Part shown: in pieces, positions 47,969-48,980 of the stretch
Position numbering within the stretch: the first letter of the stretch is position 1
How the letters are laid out: each line of letters opens with the position of its first letter
Assembly (NCBI RefSeq): GCF_000240165.1
Contig: NC_017585.1
Coordinates: forward strand, 62,001-126,000
Source of the DNA: Streptantibioticus cattleyicolor NRRL 8057 = DSM 46488
GTDB lineage: Bacteria; Actinomycetota; Actinomycetes; Streptomycetales; Streptomycetaceae
DNA: 64,000 nucleotides
Direction of reading: 5' to 3'
Program-made: the position numbers and the translations under genes
Notes under the pieces: generated by a model
Told to the model about the DNA's origin: nothing
Seen by the model: only the letters and a program-made list of their open reading frames with translations
Databases searched by the model: none

Positions 47969-48781
47969 GTGTCATCCGAGATGCGGCAACCGCAGGATCA
48001 ACGCCGTGAGCTGGCCGCTTTCCTCCGCAGCCGCCGGGAACGGCTCACCCCGGACCAGGTGGGGTTGCCGAGCACCGGCCGGCGCCGGACGCCGGGGCTG
48101 CGCCGGGAGGAGCTGGCGCTGCTCGCCGGGATCAGCGCGACCTGGTACACGTACCTGGAGCAGGGCCGGGACATCCGCGCCTCGGACCAGGTGCTCGACG
48201 CCCTCGCCACGGCACTGCGGCTCGACCGTCCCGAGCGCGACCACCTCTTCCGCCTCGCCGGGCACACCTCCACCGCCACCGCCGGGGAACCCGAACCGCT
48301 CACCCCGGAAGTCGCGGCCGTCCCGCACCTCCTCCAGCCGCAGCCCGCCTACGTCATCGGCAACGACTACGACGTCCTCAGCCACAACAAGGCAGCCGCC
48401 GACCTGTTCCCGAACCTCACCACGGCGGCGGACCGGACGCCGAACCTCGCCCGCTGGACGTTCCTCGACCCCGCCGCCCGGGACGTCGTGGTCGACTGGG
48501 AAACCGAGGCACGCGGCCTCCTCGCCCGGCTGCGCACCCTCACCGCCCGCCACCCCGGCCACCCCCGGTACACACAACTCATCGACGAGCTGAAGGCAGG
48601 CAGCCCGCAGGTGCGTGCCTGGTGGCCGCGGTACGACGTACAGGTCCGGCACAGCGGACGCAAACGGCTGCGGCGCCCGGGCGGTGAGACCGTGGAGTTC
48701 GCCTACACCGCGTTCCACCTGGCCGACCAACCCGAACTGACCCTGGTGATCTACACCGAGGCGCGGCAGCCGGCGCGGTGA
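47969..48781 (+). CDS. MmyB-type XRE-family regulator
   Basis: The protein has 270 residues from a GTG (RBS-like CCGAAGG). The helix-turn-helix includes PGLRREELALLAGISATWYT then YLEQGRDIRASDQVL; the MmyB domain begins at about PAYVIGNDYDVLSHNKAAAD and continues through LARWTFLDPAARDVVVDWET. The GTG is accepted since GAAGG precedes it; an ATG four codons on is an alternative. It is divergent from an SDR gene, its presumed target. Of the three MmyB-type regulators here this has the clearest candidate operators. Confidence 0.9.
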   Translation: MSSEMRQPQDQRRELAAFLRSRRERLTPDQVGLPSTGRRRTPGLRREELALLAGISATWYTYLEQGRDIRASDQVLDALATALRLDRPERDHLFRLAGHTSTATAGEPEPLTPEVAAVPHLLQPQPAYVIGNDYDVLSHNKAAADLFPNLTTAADRTPNLARWTFLDPAARDVVVDWETEARGLLARLRTLTARHPGHPRYTQLIDELKAGSPQVRAWWPRYDVQVRHSGRKRLRRPGGETVEFAYTAFHLADQPELTLVIYTEARQPAR

Positions 48782-48829: not shown

Positions 48830-48835
48830 TATGAT
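48830..48835 (+). promoter_or_regulatory. -10 element upstream of the tRNA-like RNA
   Basis: TATGAT, preceded by CCGG, is one of the best -10 matches in the window. It would start a transcript near 48842. No coding gene follows within 300 bases, so it fits a noncoding transcript. Confidence 0.5.
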
Positions 48836-48868
48836 CAATGTCGTTCGGGTGCACAGCACGCGAGCCAG

Positions 48869-48940
48869 GCGTTCGTGGTCCAAGTCAAGACGCCCACCAA
48901 CCGGTGGGAAATGCAGGTGCAAGCCCTGCCGGGCGCTCCA
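48869..48940 (+). ncRNA. tRNA-like RNA with encoded CCA and non-canonical loops
   Basis: A 72-base stretch can fold as a tRNA-like element. Acceptor GCGTTCG (48869-48875) pairs with CGGGCGC (48930-48936), with two G-U pairs, followed by U and a genomic CCA (48938-48940). The T-arm is GCAGG-TGCAAGC-CCTGC (48913-48929). An anticodon-like hairpin CCCAC-CAACCG-GTGGG (48893-48908) has a six-base loop without U33. The D-arm is weak (GTC/GAC, loop without GG). The T-loop has G at position 55. A -10 box and a terminator flank it. It may be a tRNA unfit for the ribosome, a decaying tRNA gene, or a structured leader. Confidence 0.52.
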
Positions 48941-48945
48941 TCACG

Positions 48946-48980
48946 AAAGGCGCCCTCGTCACCGAGACGGGGGCGCCTTT
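48946..48980 (+). terminator. Terminator hairpin after the tRNA-like RNA
   Basis: AAAGGCGCCC (48946-48955) and GGGCGCCTTT (48971-48980) form a perfect 10-base stem. It starts five bases after the CCA, as is usual for streptomycete tRNA genes. Confidence 0.72.

Follow-up and report, generated by a model that had tools for sequence, protein, structure and literature searches.

The window, i.e. the whole 64,000-nt stretch of DNA analysed here, comprises positions 62001-126000 of the megaplasmid pSCAT of Streptantibioticus cattleyicolor NRRL 8057, a replicon of 1,812,548 bases in an 8.1-Mb genome of two contigs. It carries a tRNA-like unit of 72 nt on the forward strand, flanked by the gene of an XRE-type regulator (47969-48781) and by a glycosyltransferase gene. 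Both ORFs were named from their sequence, and similar plasmid genes are annotated likewise. The pSCAT record NC_016113.1 matched all 16,000 of the 16,000 bases that surround the unit. The features are as follows, in positions of the window:

48830..48838 (+): promoter box TATGATCAA with the -10 hexamer TATGAT (48830-48835), starting 39 nt 5' of the unit; seen in the sequence and corresponding to the conserved TATGATCAT / TANNNTTGATC element of the family
48869..48940 (+): whole cloverleaf, including U73 and an encoded CCA; MFE fold, covariance model (75.4 bits, E 6e-17), relatives in more than 100 genomes
48869..48875 (+): acceptor 5' strand GCGTTCG, pairing with CGGGCGC at 48930-48936 (7 bp, two G-U)
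48878..48891 (+): D-arm, stem GTC/GAC and loop CAAGTCAA; seen in the sequence and in the D-loop tally of 187 sites
48893..48908 (+): hairpin at the anticodon position, CCCAC-CAACCG-GTGGG, a six-base loop without U33 in which CC is kept (subtype B); covarying pairs
48913..48929 (+): T-arm GCAGG-TGCAAGC-CCTGC, with G55 instead of T/psi55 and with the pairs G49-C65 and A51-U63
48937..48937 (+): discriminator U73; seen in the sequence, a bacterial glycine identity element (PMC9976931)
48938..48940 (+): encoded CCA; family tally of 187 sites
48946..48980 (+): intrinsic terminator with a 10-bp stem, AAAGGCGCCC (48946-48955) pairing with GGGCGCCTTT (48971-48980), and T's at its end; seen in the sequence

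The unit reads GCGTTCG TG GTC CAAGTCAA GAC G CCCAC CAACCG GTGGG AAAT GCAGG TGCAAGC CCTGC CGGGCGC T CCA, with U8-G9 between the acceptor and the D-arm, a D-stem of 3 bp only and AAAT as the variable region. Folding of this single sequence yielded exactly the cloverleaf as the MFE structure (-29 kcal/mol). The initial annotation had described a 72-base unit with a fully paired acceptor containing two G-U pairs, a perfect T-stem and a CCA, as well as a six-base loop lacking U33, a D-loop without GG and a T-loop TGCAAGC with G55, the whole being preceded by TATGAT and closed by a 10-base terminator stem. All of these elements were found as described. T54-psi55-C56 and a 7-nt loop with U33 are both absent from the unit. 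The fold energy itself was unexceptional (z -1.27, with 23 of 200 shuffled sequences folding equally well), and it is therefore homology that raises the unit above chance. No tRNA was called by ARAGORN anywhere in the window, no match to the unit was obtained with Rfam at gathering score, and a scan of the genome with RF00005 gave 64 places at E <= 0.1, from which the unit was absent.

A DNA search of 395 Streptomycetaceae genomes gave matches in 177 of them at E <= 0.01 (best E 3e-25), the weakest of these probably being other tRNAs. Many of the best matches begin with the acceptor's first base and stop at about the discriminator, so that they coincide with the boundaries of the unit. A short exact pattern was found in 125 of the 395 genomes, with one to six dispersed copies each, and occurred outside the window's own genome in a single large genus only. 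A scan of named genomes yielded at least 120 stretches, and all 80 titles among the matches listed were from Streptomyces; exact-pattern scans using the T-loop and acceptor letters of the window copy itself yielded nothing elsewhere. Copies lie on chromosomes as well as on plasmids: 69 Streptomycetaceae plasmid records (68 Streptomyces and one Streptantibioticus) contained 135 places, the smallest carrier being a circular S. angustmyceticus plasmid of 21 kb, and no match to the family was found among 50,697 phage records. In the S. clavuligerus plasmid records NZ_CP027859.1 and NZ_CP032054.1, four to eight copies share a single plasmid. Three copies were also seen within 8 kb in S. mangrovisoli (L116), with unrelated flanks. 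Between copies of one genome, similarity ended near the promoter and the terminator, both of which were diverged, and a comparison of occupied and empty plasmid sites gave no clean pair. The multiple copies and the carriage on plasmids may reflect dosage, and they hint at a process worth finding.

Two subtypes could be distinguished by the loop at the anticodon position. Subtype A, to which most copies belong, has the 7-nt loop CUUCCUG and is reported as tRNA-Gly(tcc) by ARAGORN; it retains U33 together with a UCC anticodon and could in principle decode. Subtype B, which includes the window unit, has a six-base loop CANCCG and a remodelled closing stem and is not called; in this subtype U33 and one loop base are lost. 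The tally of 187 sites comprised CTTCCTG (143), CTTCCCG (15), CAGCCG (11), CAACCG (10), CATCCG (3), CTCCAA (3) and others (2). The loop CUCCAA of one genome (G340, loci L297 and L298) was shortened independently, and CC was again kept. Standard tools either miss the genes of this family or file them as ordinary tRNA-Gly(UCC).

The relatives sought by the initial annotation, together with compensatory changes in the stems, were indeed found. The covariance model that recovered the window unit had been trained on subtype A members alone. In 32 distinct sequences the pairs of the cloverleaf were 99.5% standard, and five stem pairs were changed on both sides. Double-changed cells numbered 44, as against 15.2 in shuffled alignments, and 44 was reached in none of 500 shuffles; when partners were slid out of register, pairing dropped to 34-48%. 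At acceptor pair 6-67, subtype A carries G-C where subtype B has C-G or U-G, and four types were seen for each of the two inner pairs of the anticodon stem. The unit was 98.5-100% identical at six orthologous sites, among others downstream of tsaD, mdh and groEL, a comparison in which part of the 5' half is fixed by the search pattern and the T-arm lies outside it, while identity dropped to about 50-90% in the flanks (73-93% over 80 nt upstream and 67-75% over 60 nt downstream). Judged from these sequences, strong purifying selection acts on the unit as a cloverleaf.

Transcription signals of the same kind accompany the relatives. In about 100 of 147 a TGAT(C/T) box with a -10-like TANNNT preceded the unit at a distance of 30-60 (mostly 38-48) nt, and the TATGATCAT/TANNNTTGATC box was kept before about two thirds of the units. 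A strong hairpin followed the unit in all 147, the 62 nt on the 3' side folding with a mean of -37.4 kcal/mol compared to -21.9 kcal/mol after shuffling. A TGATC motif was also observed to overlap or follow the -10 box at a nearly fixed distance in about two thirds of the units. This motif might be the site of a regulator, beyond a role in the promoter alone.

Bacterial glycine identity resides in U73, G1-C72, C2-G71, C35 and C36 (PMC9976931). In the 187 flank-distinct sites of the tally, collected with a search expression that put no constraint on the T-loop, T-stem, anticodon loop or positions 71 and 74, G1-C72, C2-G71, G3-C70 and U73 were all present; G1-C2-G3, C72 and U73 were fixed in that expression, and they were the same in similarity- and model-based matches. 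The acceptor end was GCG/CGC in all members, and CC was found at 35-36 in every loop type. G55 was present in 187 of 187 T-loops, which were of the UGCAAG or UGCGAG type, pair 49-65 was G-C in 187 of 187 and pair 51-63 was A-U in 182 of 187. The canonical tRNA-Gly of the genome (GCC, CCC and UCC) share G1-C72, C2-G71, G3-C70, U73 and CC at 35-36 with the family but differ from it in having TTC in the T-loop, G49-U65, G51-C63, GG in the D-loop and 7-nt anticodon loops. G49-U65 and G51-C63 have been described as strong pairs for EF-Tu (PMC4052509), and it is these that are replaced. Features required for charging are thus conserved, while those required for EF-Tu and the ribosome are not, which, as far as sequence can tell, is what is expected of an extra-translational glycine donor and is unlike decay.

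Two of the oddities pointed out in the initial annotation are real in the window copy but proved not to be traits of the family. A full CCA was encoded in only 75 of the 187 sites with C74 being invariant, a pattern that points to constrained 3' processing. GG at 18-19 of the D-loop, lost in the window copy (AAGTCAA, with G19 gone), was kept in about 185 of the 187 (CAAGGAAA in most relatives). The window copy itself could be a drifting one.

The genome holds a complete canonical glycine set, and the window gene is thus unneeded for decoding. A second odd tRNA-Gly(UCC) was found in the core genome (G000:C2:3540437-3540508, minus strand; L296 2637-2709), directly upstream of the tRNA-Gly(GCC) gene, and was missed by ARAGORN in S. 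cattleyicolor. A pattern for this core gene matched 105 of 150 Streptomycetaceae genomes in 14 of 17 genera, the matched copies of two genera having TTC and not UGC, and 0 of about 260 other Actinomycetes. Streptomycetes accordingly hold a widespread, mostly single-copy odd tRNA-Gly and, in part of the genus, an accessory multi-copy family. A tRNA fragment with a perfect T-arm, the 3' strand of the acceptor, CCA and a degenerate 5' half was also observed in the genome (L243, G000:C2:2408192-2408261; 27.5 bits), resembling the remnant of a tRNA 3' end left by an integrated element.

Ligases of the FemAB type were detected in 394 of 395 Streptomycetaceae genomes, with a single gene in S. cattleyicolor. 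Because FemAB is universal, its co-occurrence with the RNA is not discriminating; and as the RNA family is not universal, FemX does not require it. An adjoining partner gene, be it FemX, VanK, a Fem-like enzyme or another enzyme using tRNA, was rejected on three grounds: clustering of the neighbours of 80 loci revealed no shared protein family beyond repeats of orthologous sites (tsaD, mdh, hsp20 and groEL, named from sequence), no FemAB homologue was found among 521 ORFs neighbouring the units, and the annotated plasmid contexts of the units were unrelated.

The explanation that we consider best, and on balance probable, is that the unit encodes a glycine-accepting tRNA that evades EF-Tu and gives its glycine outside the ribosome, with its own promoter and terminator, and that, as a member of subtype B, it is a working small-RNA gene. 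The RNA would be transcribed from its own promoter, ended at its own terminator, trimmed like a tRNA and completed with CCA. The ordinary glycyl-tRNA synthetase (GlyRS) would then load it with glycine, since G1-C72, C2-G71, G3-C70, U73 and CC at the anticodon position are kept; no report of GlyRS charging an RNA with a six-base loop was found in the literature. EF-Tu would be expected to bind it poorly, owing to G49-C65, A51-U63 and G55, and normal decoding would be impossible for subtype B with its six-base loop lacking U33, so that the glycyl-tRNA would be left free as a donor. The glycine would be taken by a non-ribosomal aminoacyl-transferase, most plausibly a FemX-type peptidoglycan ligase or a Fem-like or GNAT-fold enzyme of natural-product synthesis. 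As the RNA is apparently built for glycine uptake and not for the ribosome, it probably provides glycine for another use, e.g. the cell wall. The natural variants of the anticodon loop would then separate what charging needs (CC) from what decoding needs. The initial annotation had left two alternatives, a tRNA charged for non-ribosomal use and a tRNA gene decaying at its loops; covariation, selection, identity elements and T-stem pairs favour the former, while decay is at odds with 98.5-100% identity at orthologous sites.

A bolder proposal, put forward tentatively and with some doubt, is that streptomycetes possess a second, accessory tRNA-Gly system that is mobile, multi-copy and plasmid-borne, in which decoding has been abandoned (a tetraloop-like ANCC in subtype B) and which might feed a dedicated new pathway of non-ribosomal glycine transfer, beside a near-universal core odd tRNA-Gly serving peptidoglycan.

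The RNA might instead be an accessory tRNA-Gly(UCC) that still decodes and boosts the reading of rare GGA codons, e.g. in plasmid or late-expressed genes, with subtype B as a broken form. U33, the UCC anticodon and the ARAGORN call of subtype A agree with this, but we regard it as unlikely given the invariant G55, T-stem pairs unlike those of all canonical glycine tRNAs of the genome, a possible C32-G38 pair, position 37 being a pyrimidine in almost every subtype A loop, the conservation of the six-base loop at subtype B's own sites, and the canonical tRNA-Gly(UCC) already present.

Mimicry of tRNA in the service of regulation or protection is known from tRNA-Other of Bacillus cereus, and the family could likewise act as a decoy for a toxin attacking glycyl-tRNA, a sensor of glycine charging or a competitor for GlyRS. 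Retention of GlyRS identity with loss of decoding would be in line with such a role, multiple plasmid-borne copies would suit a protective decoy, and toxins specific for U73/G71 of Gly-tRNA, such as TacT, have been described (PMC9976931). No toxin or regulator was linked to the units, however, and the changing architecture of the loop speaks against a decoy for anticodon nucleases, leaving a mimic improbable.

Decay of a tRNA gene at its loops, with the stems persisting, would account for the lack of the relatives' D-loop GG in the window copy and for the failure of generic tRNA models to detect it. A pseudogene is nevertheless quite unlikely in view of the compensatory changes, the purifying selection seen at orthologous sites, the invariant G55 and a promoter box and terminators conserved across the family, and for the family a single decaying tRNA was rejected on the basis of covariation and orthologous-site conservation.

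It is very unlikely that the unit is a selfish repeat, i.e. a hitchhiker on mobile elements or a site at which they attach: dispersed, plasmid-borne and tandem or near copies, such as those of S. mangrovisoli, would be expected of one, but within a genome the similarity stops near the diverged promoter and terminator, and no integrase or transposase regularly adjoins the units.

A twister-sister self-cleaving ribozyme is hardly credible and was rejected. A permissive Rfam scan matched RF02681 to the 3' two thirds of the unit at 19.7 bits (E 0.14 in 601 bases), with exact agreement at GGUGCAAGCCC and GGGCGCUC, because the UGCAAG loop and the GGCGCUC strand agree. This is below the gathering score of 34; scores of 19-26 bits occurred in 90 of 298 related genomes without ever passing the cut-off and arise by chance about once per few genomes in this high-GC family; five homologous loci tested gave no match at E 0.5; and A63 and the active-site strand, as established by the crystal structure (PMC5660989), are out of register.

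Among known RNAs, the core odd tRNA-Gly(UCC) resembles the accessory family in glycine identity, UCC, a UGCAA T-loop with G55, A51-U63, an altered D-loop and the lack of an encoded CCA. It differs in being a single-copy gene beside tRNA-Gly(GCC) in most genera, in its normal anticodon loop and in an extra U that bulges the T-stem, and it scored only about 43-47 bits with the model of the accessory family. As regards possible partners of a glycyl-tRNA donor, the users of Gly-tRNA known in Streptomyces are peptidoglycan ligation of the FemX type and Fem-like enzymes of natural-product synthesis, namely DhpK and Orf11 (PMC12945691). The literature searched, largely without subscription journals, gave no description of these Streptomyces genes; a tRNA-Gly that evades EF-Tu is of a known kind, while the streptomycete family, its carriage on plasmids, its copy number and the shortened-loop subtype are undescribed in that literature.

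A close precedent is the non-proteinogenic tRNA-Gly(UCC) found in Staphylococcus (isoacceptors NEW/P1-P2; Giannouli 2009, reviewed in PMC4052509), and the proposed function would make the two a case of convergence. The two T-stem pairs 49-65 and 51-63 are changed in the staphylococcal RNA; in S. aureus, A49-U65, A51-U63 and replacement of GG18-19 are associated with escape from EF-Tu (PMC4052509). Common to both are glycine identity, changed 49-65 and 51-63 pairs, non-standard D- or T-loop elements and a place outside the decoding set. The streptomycete RNA differs in having G49-C65 instead of A49-U65, a T-loop with G55, GG18-19 in most copies, and a six-base loop without U33 in subtype B. It is also multi-copy, dispersed, often plasmid-borne and missing from many species of the genus, and it has no link to a pentaglycine bridge. 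The withholding of aminoacyl-tRNA from the ribosome for cell-wall or antibiotic synthesis is understood mainly from Staphylococcus, and the family would be a separate solution to this problem, spread over more than 100 species of the main antibiotic-producing genus.
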